Program-made: the position numbers and the translations under genes
In this document: positions 18,533 to 61,939 of the stretch, one piece after another
Layout: each line of letters starts with the position of its first letter
Position numbering within the stretch: position 1 is the first letter of the stretch
Notes under the pieces: generated by a model
Told to the model about the DNA's origin: nothing
The model's input: the letters and a program-made list of their open reading frames with translations, nothing else
Database searches by the model: none
Source: Coprothermobacter proteolyticus DSM 5265
Lineage (GTDB): Bacteria; Coprothermobacterota; Coprothermobacteria; Coprothermobacterales; Coprothermobacteraceae
Direction: 5' to 3'
NCBI RefSeq assembly: GCF_000020945.1
Contig: NC_011295.1
Coordinates: forward strand, 744,001 to 808,000
Length of the DNA stretch: 64,000 nt

Positions 18533-21013
18533 ATGTTTGATGATATATTCCAACAGTTTTTCGGAAACGAGTTTTCAGATTTGTTTCCAGAGTTTTTTGA
18601 AAGGAGAAAAAGAGATATAACAGATTATCTATCATCTTCTTCTTTGTCCATCTTGCAGAATGCAGCAAACCTAGCAGGGGCTGCTGGTTATGATGAACTT
18701 ACGCCTGAGCATTTGGCCTATGCTTTACTCCAATACGAGCCTTTGGCAAATGTACTTGTGGAACACGGCGTTAATGTCGAAAAGATAAAAGAAGAGCTAG
18801 AAGAAAGCCTAACCCCAAAGGGTGAGGCAGTTAGCGAGGTAACAGTTTCGCCGCAGCTTAAGTCGGTCCTAGAAAGAGCAGCAGATATGGCACGAAACAC
18901 ATTCCGTGGTGAGGCTACTCCGGAACAGCTCTTGTTTGCCATTCTAGAAGATGGAGGATATGCCGCAAGCATCTTAGAAAGAAACAACCTGAAGCTGAAC
19001 AATTTAATGGATATTATCGAGGAGGAAAGTCGCACACGTCCTTCTGCAGGTGCTTCACCTTACCAAAGAGGAACACAGACAGCGACCACGGAACTAGAAA
19101 AGTTCGGAAGAGATCTTACAGAGCTAGCTAGACAAGGGAAACTAGATCCTATAGTAGGTCGAGACTCCGAAATACAAAGGGTTCTGGAAATTCTTTCCCG
19201 TCGTACTAAGAATAATCCCATTCTAATAGGTGATGCTGGTGTTGGTAAAACGGCCATTGTAGAAGGCATTGCCCAGAGAATTGCCTCTGGGGATGTACCT
19301 GATGCTTTAAAAGGTAAAAGAGTAATCCAATTGGATATCGGTTCTCTGGTGGCTGGTACTAAGTACCGTGGCGAATTCGAGGAAAGAATGCAGAAAATAC
19401 TTGATGAGGTAATCAAGCAAAAGGACAAAATCATACTGTTCATAGATGAAATTCACACCATAATTGGCGCTGGCGGTGCAGAAGGCGCAGTAGATGCGTC
19501 GAATATGCTAAAACCTGCTTTGGCTCGCGGCGACCTACATGTCATAGGTGCAACAACCATAGATGAATATAGAAAGTACATTGAAAAGGACCCAGCTTTT
19601 GAAAGACGTTTCCAACCCGTGTATGTACCAGAGCCATCGTTAGAAGATACCATTGCCATACTAAAAGTTCTAAAAGACAAGCTTGAGGCGCACCATAAAG
19701 TAAAGATCACCGACAACGCGATAAAGGCTGCAGTTTATTTGTCTGATCGCTACATCTCAGACCGCCATCTACCTGACAAGGCTATTGATTTACTAGACGA
19801 AGCATGCGCAAAAGTACGGTTAAGAGCTTCAAGTGTTCCCAAAGAACTTAAAGAATTGGATCAAAAGATTGATGAATTGCAGAAGCAACTGAGGTCAGCT
19901 GTAGATGCTAATGAATTTGAAAAAGCTGCACAACTTCGAGACGAAATAGCCAAGCTCAAAGAGGAAAGAGAAGAGTTTGAAAAGAAGGTAAGGCACGCTT
20001 CCTCTAATGATCTTACAGTGACAGACCAAGAAGTAGCAGAGGTTGTGTCAGCGTGGACAGGAATTCCTGTAACCCAGCTAGAGGAAAGCGAAAAGGAAAA
20101 ACTAGCTAAACTGGAAGAAATTCTTCATCGTAGGGTAGTGGGCCAAGATGAAGCCATTTCTGCTGTAGCTCAGGCAATTAGGCGCGCTAGGACGGGCTTG
20201 AAGGATCCAAAGAGACCCATTGGCAGTTTCATATTCTTGGGTCCGACGGGCGTTGGTAAGACAGAACTGGCCAAAGCTTTAGCTGAAGTACTTTTTGGCG
20301 ATGAGTCGGCGCTAGTACGCTTTGACATGTCTGAATACATGGAGAAGCACACCGTAAGCAGACTCATAGGTTCTCCGCCTGGTTACGTGGGATATGAAGA
20401 GGGAGGGCAACTCACCGAAGCAGTTCGCAGGCGTCCTTACAGTGTCATCTTATTCGACGAAATCGAGAAGGCTCACCCCGATATTCACAATTTGTTGCTG
20501 CAAGTGTTAGATGATGGACGGCTCACCGACGCGAAGGGCCGTATCGTAGACTTTAAGAACACCATCATCATTATGACTAGCAACTTAGGAAGTCACATTC
20601 TAATGAATGCTGCTCAAGAGGGTAGGCCTTTTGAGGAAGCTGAAAAAGAAGTTATGGATCTGCTCAAGAGTTACTTCAGACCAGAATTCCTAAACAGGGT
20701 AGATGACATCGTGTTCTTCAAGCCGCTTACTATGGATGAAATAAAGGAGATCGCTAAGTTGCAGCTCTCATATGTGGCTCAGCGCCTTTCACAGCAACAG
20801 ATATACGTGGAATTTACTGATGCCGCCATAGAAAACCTTGCTAAGGTAGGGTTTGATCCAGAACTTGGAGCTAGGCCTCTTCGGAGAGCAATACAGAAAG
20901 AAATTGAGAACAGAATAGCCGAAAAAATGGTTCTAGGAGAAGTTGCGCCAGGTGACCACATAAAGGTGGATTTCAAAGAGGGAAGTTTCACCGTTCAGAA
21001 AATTAGTAGCTAA
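18533..21013 (+). CDS. Clp/Hsp100 AAA+ ATPase without ClpP-docking loop
   Basis: Hexameric unfoldase or disaggregase of 826 residues. An unusual Phe/Glu-rich extension (about 1-28, [14 protein letters not shown]) precedes the double Clp-N domain. AAA1 has Walker A GDAGVGKT near 234-241 and Walker B ILFIDEIH; a short UVR-type middle segment ([15 protein letters not shown]) follows; AAA2 has GPTGVGKT near 573-580. The UVR segment is ClpC-like, and there is no long ClpB coiled coil. The AAA2 loop that carries (I/V/L)GF in ClpC reads [18 protein letters not shown], with no such tripeptide, so ClpP binding is not expected. Its paralogue at 44282-46699 keeps IGF. AAAGGAGGTG precedes the ATG. Likely a ClpP-independent chaperone; function inferred. 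Confidence 0.93.
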
Positions 21014-21017
21014 GCTT

Positions 21018-21082
21018 TTTTCCCAGCTTGGACCAGCGTAATAAAGACTTGAACGCGGTTCAGGCTGGGAAATTCTTTTTTA
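21018..21082 (+). terminator. Probable terminator after the Clp ATPase gene
   Basis: TTTCCCAGCTTGGA and TTCAGGCTGGGAAA can pair as an outer stem of about 9-12 bases with a loop of roughly 35 bases, followed by ATTCTTTTTT. The large loop is unusual, but the position and U tract fit termination. Confidence 0.65.
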
Positions 21083-21119
21083 ATAACTATGTGGTATTAT
21101 GAACAAAAGAGGTGGGAAG

Positions 21120-22238
21120 ATGCTTGTAGATTTAAAAGAGTTTTCTATGGCTGAAATTCTTGGTATTGCTGAAAAATCCAGAGGTGACTTGGTTACTCTA
21201 AGAATGACAGATCCACATCTTTTCATGGTGTACGGCGACGGTCATGTTATCTACGCATCCTACCGAAAGCTCTTAGGAGAAGAGGCGTTTCTTTCCGCTT
21301 TGTTACTTGATGAGGGTGTTGTGGAAATAACACATTTGGCCCTAGACATAAGGATCAGGCCAAATATTACCTATGTTTACGACGAGTTGCTTCAAGAAGG
21401 TTCAAAAAGAGTGGAAGAATTCAGATCCATGATGGCACAGCTTGGGTCTTTGAAAGTTGTCCCTAAGGTCTGCAGACAGCTTAAAGTAGAGGAATTGTGC
21501 ATAAATGCGTTACACTGGGGGATCATAGTTGGCGCGTTCAAAGGTTTAACTGTTTACTATCTTGCTGATGTTCTTCGGGTTTCAGAGTACGACTTAGCCA
21601 AGGCTGCACTAGATTTAGTGAATGTGGGCGCTATAACAATGTCTGAAGGGAGTCATGAACCTGTTGTTGAATCTGTCTTAGTTGAAAAAAGATCCTTAGG
21701 AAGCCAGCGACTTAGTGAAGTTAAAAAGCCAATACATCAGGTAAAGGAGGGGTTGGGGACAACTCTCCTAGTTGGCCAACCCCATGGGAGACTTAAGGAG
21801 ATTGATTTCGCAGAGGAGAATGTTAAATCAGAATCTGCAAATAATCCTAAAGGTGTGCCTATAAAAACACCTGAGAACAAAAAAGCCACGCTCCATACGA
21901 AATTACCTGACTCAAATGGTATTGAAGTCACAGTGACTGTACTTCCATTCGGGGCCAGCCTAGGAACTAGTGATACCATTGATGACGGTTGTTTGGCTTT
22001 AAATGCCGACCTGTTTCAGATGATTCAACAGTCAGTAGGTGAGAACTCAACTCAGGCTTACATATTAAACCCCGAGAAAGAAGACATAGAACCTCTCTTG
22101 GTTAGATTAGTCCCAACTAAACAAGTTCTGTCAGCTGCATTGACAGTAGGTGCTTTTTTAAAGCTAGGAGCAAGAAACGGCCAAACTGTGAAGGTCTTGC
22201 CACTAACAACAAATTCTTCAAACAGTAAAGAGGAATAA
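21120..22238 (+). CDS. PATAN/DUF4388-like regulatory protein, paralogue A
   Basis: Function unknown. The 372-residue protein has three parts. Residues 1-95 (MLVDLKEFSMAEILGIAEKS, GDGHVIYASYRKLLGEEAF, EGVVEITH) resemble the PATAN/DUF4388 pattern. Residues about 100-200 look like a winged helix (HWGIIVGAFKGLTVYYLADV, LAKAALDLVNVGAIT). A low-complexity linker leads to a C-terminal beta-rich domain of about 105 residues (VTVTVLPFG ... NGQTVKVLPL). The frame opens at ATG 21099, but ATG 21120 has AGAGGTGGG just upstream and aligns with the start of paralogue B, which follows after 3 bases. Cytosolic; no membrane segment. Identification of the domains is by eye. Confidence 0.85.
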   Translation: MLVDLKEFSMAEILGIAEKSRGDLVTLRMTDPHLFMVYGDGHVIYASYRKLLGEEAFLSALLLDEGVVEITHLALDIRIRPNITYVYDELLQEGSKRVEEFRSMMAQLGSLKVVPKVCRQLKVEELCINALHWGIIVGAFKGLTVYYLADVLRVSEYDLAKAALDLVNVGAITMSEGSHEPVVESVLVEKRSLGSQRLSEVKKPIHQVKEGLGTTLLVGQPHGRLKEIDFAEENVKSESANNPKGVPIKTPENKKATLHTKLPDSNGIEVTVTVLPFGASLGTSDTIDDGCLALNADLFQMIQQSVGENSTQAYILNPEKEDIEPLLVRLVPTKQVLSAALTVGAFLKLGARNGQTVKVLPLTTNSSNSKEE

Positions 22239-22241
22239 AGT

Positions 22242-23300
22242 ATGAAGGCATCTCTTTCCGAGTTTAGTATGGCTGAACTCATGGGATTAGCGAGAAGAGC
22301 CAAAGACAAAGTTGTTGCTCTAAAAATGGAAGATCCATTTGTGAGGATAATTTTCGAAGCGGGAGAGCCTGTTTTTGCTGTCTACAGAGGTCTAAAGGGT
22401 AGGGAAGCCTTTTTGGCGTCAATGTTTGTTGAAGATGGTGAAGTAGAAATAACTCCCATAGTAACTCAGGCTAAGATTAGAAGCAATTTGGATGCGTCTT
22501 TTGACCAGCTGCTAAGTGAATTCGCTTCTGAACAAGAAGTTTACGCGGAGGCTCGTTCTTTGATCGATAATCTAGATAACACAGTTGGCGCCACCCTTGC
22601 GATAGAAAAGGATGAGACGATACGCGTGGGTCAAAAAGAATGGAGTGTCCTCATTTCACTGTTAAAGGGACTAACTCTTAAAGAAGCTGCTGTAGATTCT
22701 GGCACTGCTGAATACATAGTTGTTGAAACGGTCTCGAACTTCCTTAGACTAGGCCTATTGTCGGTGAATACTTTTAAGCAAACTGAAGATGAGCAGGCGT
22801 TTACGCAGGAAATTGCTAACCAATCTTCGCAAATCGATTCGTCAGTAGCTACGCTAGATGCAGATGTTGATGCCATGAGTTGTGATGTATTAGAAAACAA
22901 TGTGGAATTTACTGATACCCAGACTTTTCAGGCTGAATCTAACATTAAAGAAGGTATAGTAGAGGACCGGCACCACAGCGCTCAGCTAGTAGAGGATTTC
23001 GAACTAAAGGTTACGATGCTTCCTATTATAAGCGACTTCCTAGATAACCCCGAGATTGATGACGAAACTATAGTAATTAACGAAGCACTGTTTCAAGATC
23101 TTGTAGCACGATGTGGTCGAAGTTTTGGCCGCTGTATGGTTAGCAATTTGAAGGACGAGCACACTGACCCCTTGATAATGAAGATATATGTCCATAGTGC
23201 TGTAGAGGAAACTGCTATAAGCACTGCGGCGCTTTTCAGACTGAAAGTGTGGAGTGGCTCAGCCGTGAGGGTAAAGCCACTATTTGAGGAAATTGGTTAA
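22242..23300 (+). CDS. PATAN/DUF4388-like regulatory protein, paralogue B
   Basis: Tandem paralogue of the preceding gene, with the same three-part plan in 352 residues. The N-terminus (MKASLSEFSMAELMGLARRA, GEPVFAVYRGLKGREAF, DGEVEITP) and the C-terminal domain (LKVTMLPIISDF, EIDDETIVINEALFQDLV, SGSAVRVKPL) align clearly with paralogue A, whereas the linker (about 185-245) is unrelated and rich in Asp, Gln and Ser. The middle winged-helix-like part reads EWSVLISLLKGLTLKEAAV, then FLRLGLLSV. The pair forms its own operon between terminators. Divergence after duplication, perhaps forming a heteromer, is inferred. Confidence 0.85.
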   Translation: MKASLSEFSMAELMGLARRAKDKVVALKMEDPFVRIIFEAGEPVFAVYRGLKGREAFLASMFVEDGEVEITPIVTQAKIRSNLDASFDQLLSEFASEQEVYAEARSLIDNLDNTVGATLAIEKDETIRVGQKEWSVLISLLKGLTLKEAAVDSGTAEYIVVETVSNFLRLGLLSVNTFKQTEDEQAFTQEIANQSSQIDSSVATLDADVDAMSCDVLENNVEFTDTQTFQAESNIKEGIVEDRHHSAQLVEDFELKVTMLPIISDFLDNPEIDDETIVINEALFQDLVARCGRSFGRCMVSNLKDEHTDPLIMKIYVHSAVEETAISTAALFRLKVWSGSAVRVKPLFEEIG

Positions 23301-23358: not shown

Positions 23359-23400
23359 AAAGAGGGCCTGGAGTCCCGCTTTGAGCTCCAAGCCCTCTTT
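23359..23400. terminator. Bidirectional terminator
   Basis: AAAGAGGGCCTGGAG and CTCCAAGCCCTCTTT pair (one bulge) around a 12-base loop, between the convergent PATAN-like pair and the PTS genes. A and T runs flank both arms. Confidence 0.88.
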
Positions 23401-43061: not shown

Positions 43062-44285
43062 TTAGAAAAGTTCTTTAATTAATTCTACAACAGTGGAAGC
43101 GTTTGTTCTTTTCAACTGAGCTCCTCTGACTAATCGGTCTAGTTGTGTCTCAGGGTGAGGAGACCTTATATCACCTGTTAGCAAAACTTCCCCATACACT
43201 AATGTATTTCCAGAAATCGGCATTTCCTTCAAACTGGAATAAACTGCTGCTACTATTGCGGCATCAACACCATAATCGTTTACAAAAAAATCCGTAGTGA
43301 GATCTACATAGATGTCGTATTTGTACAGCGGGAGCCTAAGATATTTTTGCATAACTGCCGTTAGAAGCAACAACCGATTATTTGGGTACCTTGAGCTTAA
43401 ACGCTTAGGTATTTGCCCATAGGAATCAGTTACCAGTGCGTGCACCTGTACGAACTCGAATCTAGTCCCTGTGTTTACAGCACTAAGAACTAACCCTGTT
43501 TGGTTCCTATCTAATCCACTAACCTCTACTTCGGAAGGAGTTAAGCCTGAACTTTGCATCTCGAGCAAAATCTGGTCTGTACTAGGCCCAAACCTGTTTT
43601 TAACTAACTTAAGTAGGCGCTTGTCACTAGTTCTGTCGCCTTCTAGGTACAGCACCACATCTACCATATGTTCCACCGTGCGAGGGCCTGCTATTACGCC
43701 TTCCTTTGTAACGTGTGCGACAATTAGTGCAATGCCGTTCGATTCTTTTGCCCATTTTACTAAATATCCAGCTATTTCTTTTACCATGGCAGGTGATCCT
43801 GGAGCACCCATGTCCCCAAAACGAATGGTCTGAAGGCTGTCCACACAGATCAAGCCGTAATTATCTAAATCAACAGCGCCAAGGTCAGATTCTGACACCA
43901 CATTTATGTTTCTCAAACCAATACGTTCAGCGCGTTCAAGAACTTGCTCTCTTGTTTCCTCCGAACTAACATATACAGCATCCGTATCTGCATTGCCAAG
44001 GATTTGCAGTGCCAGTGTTGACTTACCTATACCAGGTTCGCCACCAAGCAGCAACACTGAGCCGCTCTTGAGACCTCCTCCCAAAACAAAATTGAGCTCA
44101 GGTAAGAAAGTTGGAGTTGTTTTTTGAGGTTTCTTTGTGTAACTAAAATTTACTTTCCGCTCTTGTTCGGCTATGGGTTTTCTTACAATAAATGTACCAA
44201 ATTGGCCGCACTGCGGGCACCTTCCCAGCTTAACTGAGGAAACGTACCCGCAGTTTGAACATTCGTACTGACTTTTCTCACTCAA
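43062..44285 (-). CDS. radA: DNA repair protein RadA
   Basis: RecA-like branch-migration ATPase (Sms). The N-terminal C4 zinc finger is CSNCG ... CPQCG; Walker A is GGEPGIGKST; the family-specific KNRFG occurs in LLKLVKNRFGPS; and a Lon-like C-terminal domain follows. At 407 residues it is somewhat short (usual about 450). The start is a TTG whose TTGA overlaps the clpC stop. DisA, normally next in Firmicutes, is missing here and yacL follows directly. Confidence 0.94.
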   Translation of the reverse strand: MSEKSQYECSNCGYVSSVKLGRCPQCGQFGTFIVRKPIAEQERKVNFSYTKKPQKTTPTFLPELNFVLGGGLKSGSVLLLGGEPGIGKSTLALQILGNADTDAVYVSSEETREQVLERAERIGLRNINVVSESDLGAVDLDNYGLICVDSLQTIRFGDMGAPGSPAMVKEIAGYLVKWAKESNGIALIVAHVTKEGVIAGPRTVEHMVDVVLYLEGDRTSDKRLLKLVKNRFGPSTDQILLEMQSSGLTPSEVEVSGLDRNQTGLVLSAVNTGTRFEFVQVHALVTDSYGQIPKRLSSRYPNNRLLLLTAVMQKYLRLPLYKYDIYVDLTTDFFVNDYGVDAAIVAAVYSSLKEMPISGNTLVYGEVLLTGDIRSPHPETQLDRLVRGAQLKRTNASTVVELIKELF

Positions 44286-46699
44286 ACTCTACTAACTTCC
44301 TCGTCTGGTACCTTGTTGATTGTAATTTCGCCATCTACGAAATCCATAAACAATGTTCCACTGATGTTTTCGTGTTTGAGCATGTACTCGGCCAAAGGAT
44401 CTTTTACAAGCCTCTGAATAGCTCTTCTCAATGGTCTAGCACCGAACCTTGGTTCATATCCTTCTGTGATTATTTGATCTAACATTCTGTCAGAGATTTT
44501 AACCGTAAGGTTTTGAGAACGAAGCTGTTTGTTTAGTTCGTCCATCATGATACCCACGATTTGTCTTAGATCGTCGTTTGTTAAGTGATGGAATACTACT
44601 ATTTCATCGATCCTGTTTAAGAACTCGGGCTTAAAAAACTTCTTCACGGCATCCATGACAAGGTTTTCCATGTTTTCAAATTTGACTTGATCTTTTAAGA
44701 ATCCTATGGTTGTACCTGCGCTTATATCTCTGCTACCCAGGTTCGAGGTCATTATTATGATCGTGTTCCTAAAATCTACTACACGACCTTGACCATCGGT
44801 TAGCCGGCCATCTTCGAATATTTGAAGCAATATATCGAAGACATCTGGATGTGCTTTCTCAATCTCATCTAGAAGCACAATACTGTGCGGTTTCCTTCTA
44901 ACCGCTTCAGTAAGCTGTCCTCCTTCTTCGTATCCCACATATCCTGGAGGAGCGCCGACCAAACGGCTCACATTGAACTTTTCCATGTACTCTGACATGT
45001 CAATGCGTATCAGGGCCTCTTCTTCACCAAACATGAACTCGGCTAAAGCACGCGCAAGTTCTGTCTTTCCTACTCCTGTGGGGCCAAGGAAAAGGAAGAC
45101 ACCGATGGGTCTTCGATCATCTTGCAAGCCCGTTCTGCTTCTTCTAATAGCTTTAGCTACAGCAGTAACCGCTTCGTTCTGTCCAACAATTCTGCGGTGC
45201 AGATAATCTTCGATCTCTAATAGTTTCTTCTTATCATCCAAGCGCAGTTTTGCCACAGGTATGCCAGTCCAAGAAGATATGGTGTACGCAACGTCATCGA
45301 AAGACACCGTGGGCTGATTCTCATCCATGCTACGTTCATAGAGCCAAATCTCTTCCATCCTTGAGTACTCTTCTTTGAGAGCTTTTTCCTTATCTCGCAA
45401 TGCAGCCGCTTCTTCAAACTGTTGAGAGTCAATAGCCAACTGTTTCTGCAATCTAACATTTTCAATTTCGTCAAGCAACGCCCTGAGATTGCTAGGCAAG
45501 ACCTCGTTTGCAAGCCTTACTTTGGCACATGTTTCGTCCAACGCATCTATGGCTTTATCAGGCAGGAATCTTTGCTTCACATATTTTTTCGTCAATATGG
45601 CAGCTGCTTCTATGGCGTCATCTGCTATCTTTACGTTGTGGAATTTTTCGTAAATGGGACGTAACCCAATAAGAATTTGCTTAGTTTCTTCCAGGGAAGG
45701 TTCTTCTACTTGAACTGGCTGGAATCTACGTTCAAAAGCGGGGTCCCTTTCAATGTACTTTCTGTAGTCATCATAGGTTGTTGCACCAATAACCTTTATC
45801 TCACCACGAGCCAAAGATGGTTTCAATATGGATGCAGCATCGATGGCACCTTCAGCAGCTCCAGCACCAATGACGGTATGGATTTCGTCAATAAACAAAA
45901 TCACTTGACCATTGGTGCGCTTCACTTCATCAAGGATCTTCTTCATGCGTTCTTCAAATTCGCCTCTGTACTTAGTTCCAGCAACTATGGAAGAAATGTC
46001 AAGCTGTACAACACGCTTCTTCTTTAGCGAATAAGGCACCTTACCAGAGGCAATTCTTTCGGCTAACCCTTCAACTATGGCCGTCTTACCCACGCCAGGT
46101 TCTCCAAGCAATATGGGATTGTTCTTAATTCTGCGGCTCAATATCTCAATGATCCTGTTGAGTTCGGTTTCACGACCTATGACAGGATCCAACTTTCCTT
46201 TTTCAGCCAAAGAAACAAGGTCCTTGGAGAACTTGTCCAGAACAGGGGTTTTTGTTTTTCCCTTTTCCTCTGGTTCTTGCTCGCCCATTTCTATGACCTT
46301 TTTTCTTACGTCGTCATAAAAAACACCGTTCTCATTAAGTATGGAGCTAACTCTGGATGGTTCCTTGAGTATTGCCAGTAACAAATGTTCTGTGCCTACA
46401 TAGGAGTGAGCAAGCTTGCGTGCTTCTTCACTGGCAATATCCAAAAGTCTTCTAGCTTCACTAGATAGTTCGGGATACTGCAAACTTGAAGCCATGGGCA
46501 TTGGAATATCTTCAATAGAACTCCTTATATTATCGGCATCCGCACCTAAAGAATCGATTATTGAATATGCCCTCGTATCTTCATTGAGCATAGCTAGGAC
46601 TAGGTGCTCTCTGCCAACAAAACTACTGTTAAGGCGCCGCGCTTCTTCCTGGGCATCCTTAAGTGCTTTTCTTGCTTCTTCAGAAAATCTGATAAACAA
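44282..46699 (-). CDS. clpC: ClpC ATPase (ClpP-partner type)
   Basis: Hsp100 unfoldase of 805 residues. It has the double Clp-N domain starting FIRFSEEARKALKDAQEEA, AAA1 with GEPGVGKT and [13 protein letters not shown], a UVR segment (QFEEAAALRDKEKAL), and AAA2 with GPTGVGKT. Between the AAA2 motifs, SAGTTIGFLKDQ contains the IGF tripeptide that docks on ClpP, so it should feed a ClpCP protease; clpP is not in the window. The start is TTG 46699 after AAAGGAGGG. CtsR, McsA and McsB, usual upstream neighbours, are absent; trxB lies upstream instead. Confidence 0.95.
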   Translation of the reverse strand: MFIRFSEEARKALKDAQEEARRLNSSFVGREHLVLAMLNEDTRAYSIIDSLGADADNIRSSIEDIPMPMASSLQYPELSSEARRLLDIASEEARKLAHSYVGTEHLLLAILKEPSRVSSILNENGVFYDDVRKKVIEMGEQEPEEKGKTKTPVLDKFSKDLVSLAEKGKLDPVIGRETELNRIIEILSRRIKNNPILLGEPGVGKTAIVEGLAERIASGKVPYSLKKKRVVQLDISSIVAGTKYRGEFEERMKKILDEVKRTNGQVILFIDEIHTVIGAGAAEGAIDAASILKPSLARGEIKVIGATTYDDYRKYIERDPAFERRFQPVQVEEPSLEETKQILIGLRPIYEKFHNVKIADDAIEAAAILTKKYVKQRFLPDKAIDALDETCAKVRLANEVLPSNLRALLDEIENVRLQKQLAIDSQQFEEAAALRDKEKALKEEYSRMEEIWLYERSMDENQPTVSFDDVAYTISSWTGIPVAKLRLDDKKKLLEIEDYLHRRIVGQNEAVTAVAKAIRRSRTGLQDDRRPIGVFLFLGPTGVGKTELARALAEFMFGEEEALIRIDMSEYMEKFNVSRLVGAPPGYVGYEEGGQLTEAVRRKPHSIVLLDEIEKAHPDVFDILLQIFEDGRLTDGQGRVVDFRNTIIIMTSNLGSRDISAGTTIGFLKDQVKFENMENLVMDAVKKFFKPEFLNRIDEIVVFHHLTNDDLRQIVGIMMDELNKQLRSQNLTVKISDRMLDQIITEGYEPRFGARPLRRAIQRLVKDPLAEYMLKHENISGTLFMDFVDGEITINKVPDEEVSRV

Positions 46700-61146: not shown

Positions 61147-61220
61147 TGGAGGCGCCTGGCGGAGTCGAACCGCCCTACAGGGATTTGCAGTCCCGTGCCT
61201 AACCGCTCGGCCAAGGCGCC
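61147..61220 (-). tRNA. tRNA-Cys (GCA)
   Basis: Acceptor GGCGCCT/AGGCGCC region, anticodon loop CTGCAAA (anticodon GCA), discriminator T (U73, a cysteine identity element) and encoded CCA. It lies 6 bases after tRNA-Gly in the same unit. Confidence 0.96.
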
Positions 61221-61226
61221 ACTTTT

Positions 61227-61301
61227 TGGAGCGGGCAACGGGATTCGAACCCGCGACCCTCAGCTTGGGAAGCTGATGTTCTACCACTGAACTATGCCCG
61301 C
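61227..61301 (-). tRNA. tRNA-Gly (CCC)
   Basis: Acceptor GCGGGCA with 3' TGCCCGC, anticodon loop TTCCCAA (anticodon CCC), discriminator T and encoded CCA. First tRNA of the Gly-Cys unit, 9 bases after a -10 box. Confidence 0.96.
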
Positions 61302-61310
61302 ACCCAATAA

Positions 61311-61338
61311 ATTATACCAAAGCCCGGAAGTTCTACAA
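61311..61338 (-). promoter_or_regulatory. Promoter for tRNA-Gly and tRNA-Cys
   Basis: TTGTAG (61333-61338) and TATAAT (61311-61316) on the - strand, spacer 16. Predicted start 2-3 bases before the tRNA-Gly 5' end. The 115 bases separating it from tRNA-Phe also hold a T8 run just after tRNA-Phe that may end the upstream unit. Confidence 0.65.
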
Positions 61339-61416
61339 AGGTATGCCTAGTACTTTGTGTTTTGGAATAATCGTTTTATCATTTTGGGAAGGCCGCGTAA
61401 AAAGTGGCAAAAAAAA

Positions 61417-61492
61417 TGGTGCCGAGGGACGGAATCGAACCGCCGACACGGGGATTTTCAGTCCCCTGCTCTACCGACTGAGCTACCTCGGC
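61417..61492 (-). tRNA. tRNA-Phe (GAA)
   Basis: Acceptor GCCGAGG/CCTCGGC, anticodon loop CTGAAAA (anticodon GAA), discriminator A, encoded CCA. A run of eight T residues follows on the - strand. Last of the Leu-Val-Asp-Phe unit. Confidence 0.97.
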
Positions 61493-61499
61493 ACTAAAA

Positions 61500-61576
61500 T
61501 GGCGGGCTCGAGGGGATTTGAACCCCCGATCTCCGGCTTGACAGGCCGGCGTGTTTGGCCCCTACACCACGAGCCC
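61500..61576 (-). tRNA. tRNA-Asp (GTC)
   Basis: Acceptor GGGCTCG/CGAGCCC, D-arm beginning TGGTGTAG, anticodon loop CTGTCAA (anticodon GTC), discriminator G (an aspartate identity element), encoded CCA. Confidence 0.95.
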
Positions 61577-61580
61577 GCTT

Positions 61581-61655
61581 TGGTGGGCGGTAGAGGTTTC
61601 GAACCTCTGGCCTCTTGCTTGTAAGGCAAGCGCTCTACCACTGAGCTAACCGCCC
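61581..61655 (-). tRNA. tRNA-Val (TAC)
   Basis: Acceptor GGGCGGT/ACCGCCC, anticodon stem CTTGC/GCAAG with loop CTTACAA (anticodon TAC), discriminator A, encoded CCA. Four bases after tRNA-Leu. Confidence 0.96.
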
Positions 61656-61659
61656 ACCA

Positions 61660-61747
61660 TGGTGCAGGGGGCGGGACTTGAACCCGCACGGTCTCAACAA
61701 CCACAGGACCCTCAATCCTGCGCGTCTTCCTATTCCGCCACCCCTGC
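61660..61747 (-). tRNA. tRNA-Leu (GAG)
   Basis: Class II tRNA of 88 bases with a long variable arm; acceptor GCAGGGG/CCCCTGC, anticodon loop TTGAGGG (anticodon GAG), discriminator A, encoded CCA. First of a four-tRNA unit. Confidence 0.96.
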
Positions 61748-61762
61748 TTTGGGGTCTTTTTC

Positions 61763-61792
61763 ATTATATCTTATGGCTGTTAGTTATGTCAA
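61763..61792 (-). promoter_or_regulatory. Consensus promoter for the Leu-Val-Asp-Phe tRNA unit
   Basis: TTGACA (61787-61792) and TATAAT (61763-61768) on the - strand with an 18-base spacer. It is the best sigma-70-type promoter in the window. Confidence 0.85.
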
Positions 61793-61864
61793 GTAAGGTA
61801 ATTCTGGCGTTTTCCTTGCTATGTCCATACAAAACCATGGGGCTTAAGGTAAAATAGAATACGT

Positions 61865-61939
61865 GGGGATGTAGCTCAGTGGGAGAGCGCTTGCTTCGCA
61901 AGCAAGAGGTCGCCGGTTCGAATCCGGTCATCTCCACCA
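61865..61939 (+). tRNA. tRNA-Ala (CGC)
   Basis: Acceptor GGGGATG/CATCTCC, giving the G3:U70 pair that identifies alanine tRNAs; anticodon loop TTCGCAA (anticodon CGC), discriminator A, encoded CCA. TAAAAT at 61850-61855 or TAGAAT at 61855-61860 is the probable -10. Confidence 0.96.

Follow-up and report, generated by a model that had tools for sequence, protein, structure and literature searches.

A duplicated DUF4388-winged helix protein pair with a predicted C-terminal double-psi beta-barrel in Coprothermobacter

What may two neighbouring paralogous proteins do in a bacterial cell, when neither of them shows an evident enzymatic, receiver or membrane part? This question is raised by genes A (21120..22238, plus strand; 372 aa, ORF 21120-22235 without the stop codon) and B (22242..23300, plus strand; 352 aa, ORF 22242-23297 without the stop codon), which are located in the 64,000-nucleotide stretch of DNA analysed here (the window), being a part of the single-contig, 1.42 Mb genome of Coprothermobacter (G000). 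The initial annotation considered them a possibly undescribed regulatory pair of a common three-part plan, composed of a DUF4388/PATAN-like N-terminus, a winged helix-like middle and a beta-rich C-terminal domain, the last not recognised.

The gene pair, its surroundings and its distribution

Both genes lie downstream of a clpC-like gene (18533-21010) and are convergent with PTS genes of the ascorbate type. As a good ribosome site (AGAGGTGGG) precedes the ATG at 21120, this codon was taken as the start of A, an in-frame ATG further upstream (21099) being the less probable choice. The two co-directional ORFs can be aligned end to end with 25% identity and 47% positives (E = 4e-34), as expected of the adjacent paralogues which they had been called, and every motif quoted earlier was found in them: SMAEI/SMAEL, GEEAF/GREAF, EGVVEIT/DGEVEIT and VKVLPL/VRVKPL. 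A genome-wide count of paralogues, which had been proposed as a check, gave A and B as the sole two copies in G000, with no third one found. The closest named record containing the pair is Coprothermobacter sp. UBA10526, with A 89% identical.

A hairpin followed by a T-run (21019..21072, plus strand; fold -32.1 kcal/mol, z -6.67) is the likely terminator of the clpC-like gene, and the terminator-like hairpin after clpC is also strong in UBA10526. Another hairpin (23359..23400, no strand assigned; fold -24.4 kcal/mol, z -3.8) separates the pair from the convergent PTS genes; as its U-tract is clear on the minus strand, this hairpin may chiefly act for the PTS genes. The earlier description of an operon between terminators is thus mostly right, its upstream boundary being strong and the U-tract of its downstream hairpin lying on the opposite strand. 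A simple sigma-70 two-hexamer scan flagged no promoter site upstream of A. A candidate extended -10 promoter for both genes, TGgTATTAT, is present at 21092..21100 (plus strand), and the same extended -10 element (TGcTATTAT) stands upstream of gene A in G004, which belongs to another genus. Elsewhere in the window, seven tRNA genes are clustered at 61150-61936, six on the minus strand and one on the plus.

A and B were both found in G000, G002, G003 (where A ends at the contig end) and G004, in the order clpC-A-B in G000, G002 and G004, and they are missing together from the congener G001 (two contigs), where clpC and the PTS genes are immediate neighbours, without the pair in the middle. Since clpC-A-B also occurs in G004, which is the outgroup genus, it is simpler to assume a loss in G001, and the absence also indicates that the pair is dispensable. 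Joint retention and loss of adjacent genes need not mean that their products form a complex, because one deletion suffices. Other Coprothermobacterota (G005, G006, G007) have single homologues at other loci, which share with A/B the order DUF4388, winged helix, linker and beta-rich C-terminus ending in V.V.P, and differ from them in being single genes elsewhere in the genome, with weakly supported homology of the C-terminus. In the tree, the A and B sequences form one clade with a long stem, the placement of B from G004 being unsure; duplication in Coprothermobacteraceae is the best explanation.

The N-terminal half and its relatives

Neither Pfam nor NCBIfam returned a family above cut-off for A or B, and the Pfam DUF4388 model (PF14332) matched them below its cut-off with E = 0.018 and 0.0011, respectively. 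A profile was built of DUF4388-winged helix (wHTH) proteins of other phyla only; searched in 266 ORFs of the window, it matched solely A (5.8e-14) and B (5.6e-19), across both domains. Membership of this family is also backed by the G007 homologue, at 8e-16. Comparison of this kind of protein with the A/B family by hhalign gave 99.3% over 172 columns. In A, the DUF4388/PATAN-like domain covers residues 1-100 (21120..21419, plus strand; outgroup profile, hhalign) and the winged helix residues 101-176 (21420..21647, plus strand; AF2 model, hhalign), the AF2 model having helices at 130-140, 145-152 and 156-168 and a wing strand, with pLDDT mostly >83. Because the outgroup profile matches across both domains, the first two parts of A/B are those of an ordinary DUF4388-wHTH protein, and both assignments of the initial annotation, a DUF4388/PATAN-like N-terminus and a winged-helix middle, stand. 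So does its remark on a missing catalytic or receiver domain, as apart from DUF4388 Pfam recognised just one insignificant match in A/B, no receiver or ATPase domain among them. Sequence searches of the PDB with A/B gave chance matches only. A second DUF4388 match in the genome (G000:C1:933209-933532), which is below cut-off, contains stops and overlaps the start of pilB, was rejected.

The whole-family profile matched 66/290 genomes, mostly at positions 1-185, which comprise DUF4388 and the winged helix, so this arrangement is a widespread plan and not a new one. Its members vary by lineage in their C-terminal regions, some of them being fused to receiver domains. The plan of A/B is thus undescribed only in part: its DUF4388-wHTH half was already known, and the pair is set apart by the barrel described below, by duplication and by having no GTPase switch.

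Elsewhere, DUF4388 genes often have an MglA-like GTPase gene as their neighbour. DUF4388 was found in 112/290 genomes and the roadblock/LC7 domain (MglB-type) in 86/290, with both in 80; in other words, 80/86 roadblock genomes have DUF4388 vs 32/204 without roadblock (Fisher p ~2e-37, a value ignoring phylogeny and genome size). The distance between the two is <=6 kb in at least 25 genomes, and in L044, L053 and L054 the neighbour of a DUF4388-wHTH gene encodes an MglA-like GTPase. PATAN genes have been described in the vicinity of certain MglA and MglB genes (PMC4316618), and an Anaerolinea gene list places a DUF4388 gene beside one for an Srp102-like GTPase (PMC8756737). The co-occurrence in 80/86 genomes exceeds what has been published as 'occasional' proximity. 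At two further loci (L041:1498-2663 and L045:1498-2660), situated between phosphofructokinase-like and lipoprotein genes, a DUF4388-wHTH gene and a small GTPase gene (ATP_bind_1 and Ras matches) have a single base in common, and each locus looks like a two-gene switch without an adjacent roadblock gene.

The proteins of L044, L053 and L054, found beside an MglA-like GTPase and roadblock, resemble A/B in the DUF4388 core followed by a winged helix (~172 columns) and in having no enzyme domain. A/B differ from them in the doubled gene, the added barrel, a DUF4388 match under the Pfam cut-off, and a genome devoid of both partners: roadblock/LC7 (PF03259) had no match in G000 and none in Coprothermobacteraceae, and the Arf/Ras search for an MglA-like small GTPase in G000 gave only 428- and 589-aa GTPase-type frames, the Arf-type matches of Coprothermobacteraceae being long frames of this type. 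G005 and G006 have kept adjacent GTPase and roadblock genes, away from their DUF4388 gene. The GTPase link is therefore not directly applicable to A/B, and the co-occurrence with MglA-like GTPases that had been suggested as a check is borne out family-wide, through roadblock, and fails in G000, which has neither.

Receiver-DUF4388 response regulators (L051, L056, L057, L058, L060; PixE/PatA type, cyanobacteria) likewise have a DUF4388/PATAN-like core and a winged-helix-like region, whereas A/B are without the receiver and the domain order differs. Together with the MglA-like neighbours and the published examples (PMC4316618), these fusions agree with the earlier statement that PATAN domains elsewhere work with GTPases or response regulators. 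PixE, a cyanobacterial PATAN response regulator, is thought to bind PilB1 (PMC7690835), and by analogy A/B might control a type IV pilus-like machine through an action of DUF4388 on the PilB motor. G000 does encode PilB, PilC and a pilin, with a PilM-like match too, but G001 keeps its PilB-PilC-pilin cluster in the same order without the pair, which is thus not needed for having such a machine, and A/B-type genes are away from pilus genes in all Coprothermobacterota genomes looked at; we regard pilus control as unlikely. PilM was discarded as a marker of type IV pili, being too unspecific (248/290 genomes positive, with matches in E. coli and B. subtilis).

The linker, the predicted barrel and the upstream Clp protein

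The AF2 model of A, made from few sequences like our other models (8-11), is confident over residues 1-176, disordered over ~177-265 and forms a barrel at ~266-362, so that the structure prediction called for at the outset returned a winged helix, a disordered linker and a double-psi beta-barrel (DPBB), in accordance with the three-part plan. The linker (residues 177-264; 21648..21911, plus strand) has pLDDT of 26-32 over most of its length and evolves fast (dN/dS ~0.34). In gene A of G003 (L031:8592-9248) the 16-residue repeat VEGKIPTTEPVVGHTP occurs in it three times, which suggests that the linker changes freely.

The C-terminal domain, which had not been recognised, is indeed beta-rich and is predicted by AF2 and Foldseek to be a DPBB, located in A at residues 265-362 with a tail (21912..22235, plus strand) and in B, by full-length alignment to A, at 22992..23297 (plus strand). 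Modelled alone, the domain of A reached a mean pLDDT of 84 and pTM of 0.76, with a strand-strand-helix-strand unit occurring twice. Top Foldseek matches were the DPBB of Cdc48/VAT and archaeal VCP-like ATPases (E 9.5e-5, TM 0.72 by target length), and N-domains of p97, NSF and PEX1 were also among the matches; the predicted fold of A/B thus appears closest to the N-domains of Cdc48/VAT/NSF/PEX1, with TM ~0.7 to 7dbo by target length. The barrel of A/B differs from Cdc48/VAT in its ~14% identity, in not being fused to an AAA+ ATPase and in that the DPBB half alone was matched, and Foldseek similarity does not give a function. By sequence, Pfam scans of the barrel domains yielded sub-threshold matches in single homologues only, and the domain was seen in Coprothermobacterota alone: a profile including Coprothermobacterota rows matched seven genomes of this group, its sole match outside being marginal (E 0.005). 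With the C-termini of G005-G007 the barrel is weakly joined (hhalign 46%, 19 columns); homology is plausible by position and pattern and weak by profile comparison. No literature was found on a DPBB combined with a winged helix.

The N-terminal extension encoded by the clpC-like gene that precedes the pair is unusual. The loop of the gene product is devoid of the [LIV]GF ClpP-docking tripeptide, and this Clp may therefore be a ClpP-independent disaggregase; in the window's other ClpC (44285-46699, minus strand) the loop has IGF. A/B could then be imagined as an adaptor of the upstream Clp-type AAA+ protein, bringing clients by means of the Cdc48-N-like barrel, and the conserved order clpC-A-B, the nearness of the barrel to N-domains of AAA+ machines and the possible disaggregase nature of this Clp would all suit such a role. 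The genes are, however, separated by a strong terminator, this Clp is retained in G001, where the pair is missing, the related gene does not adjoin clpC in G005 and G006, and in Cdc48 the barrel is a part of the ATPase itself and not a separate protein, which makes the adaptor role very improbable. Still more doubtful is a wider version, in which A/B would represent a GTPase-free branch of MglA-type signalling with the barrel handing clients to the ClpP-independent Clp; if true, A/B would be a bacterial adaptor made of small-GTPase-signalling parts and p97-type unfoldase parts.

Selection and the proposed working of the pair

According to NG86 estimates between Coprothermobacter strains, A and B are under purifying selection (gene A dN/dS ~0.20-0.26), with ~0.11-0.21 for the N-terminal parts and C-terminal domains vs ~0.34-0.43 for the linkers. 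Divergence of the linkers, noticed earlier, is hence seen as a rate two to three times that of the flanking domains. Both genes evolve faster than clpC, and this, along with the loss in G001, the missing GTPase and roadblock partners in G000 and a DUF4388 sequence drifted below the Pfam cut-off, would fit a decaying and now functionless remnant of a lost MglA/roadblock system. Such decay is hard to reconcile with genes that are intact wherever their sequence is complete (both in G000, G002 and G004; B in G003), with the low dN/dS of the domain cores and with a promoter-like element kept across genera, and we give it very little credence.

Could A/B instead be a heterodimeric transcription regulator, with winged helices binding DNA, and DUF4388 and the barrel sensing a ligand or partner? 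The AF2 model of A has a winged helix in its middle, the metafold of the barrel includes DNA-binding AbrB/MazE relatives, and the G007 homologue gave a sub-threshold MazE match. Moreover, a winged helix that binds DNA has been suggested for a conserved protein whose gene lies close to Group 3 MglA genes (PMC4316618). Against this, the third helix of the wHTH is nearly free of basic residues (A SEYDLAKAALDLVNVG, B TAEYIVVETVSNFLRLG), and net charges are +1 and -4 for the winged helices of A and B, and -30 for the whole B. This charge pattern argues against specific DNA binding; with non-basic winged helices and a strongly acidic B, contacts between proteins are likelier than contacts with DNA, and a DNA-binding regulator seems to us rather improbable.

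We consider it probable, with much reserve, that A and B are cytoplasmic non-catalytic adaptors of the DUF4388/PATAN-wHTH type, duplicated and GTPase-independent, with the DPBB binding a client. The DUF4388-wHTH part works in relatives beside an MglA/roadblock GTPase switch or a receiver, and such a switch is missing here. Complex formation, the client and the pathway are what we infer here: A and B would associate via their N-terminal DUF4388/wHTH cores, and the linker-tethered DPBB may capture or present a client protein, as the N-domains of Cdc48 and NSF do. The pair would accordingly act as a scaffold, on which the barrels serve as mobile heads for binding clients, and not as a regulator that binds DNA.

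DUF4388 is a common domain, yet barely studied and named by one paper among the full texts searched, and its co-occurrence with roadblock suggests a core role in bacterial small-GTPase signalling. A lineage which has DUF4388 and is deprived of the GTPase amounts to a natural experiment, in a small genome, on the role of the domain alone.
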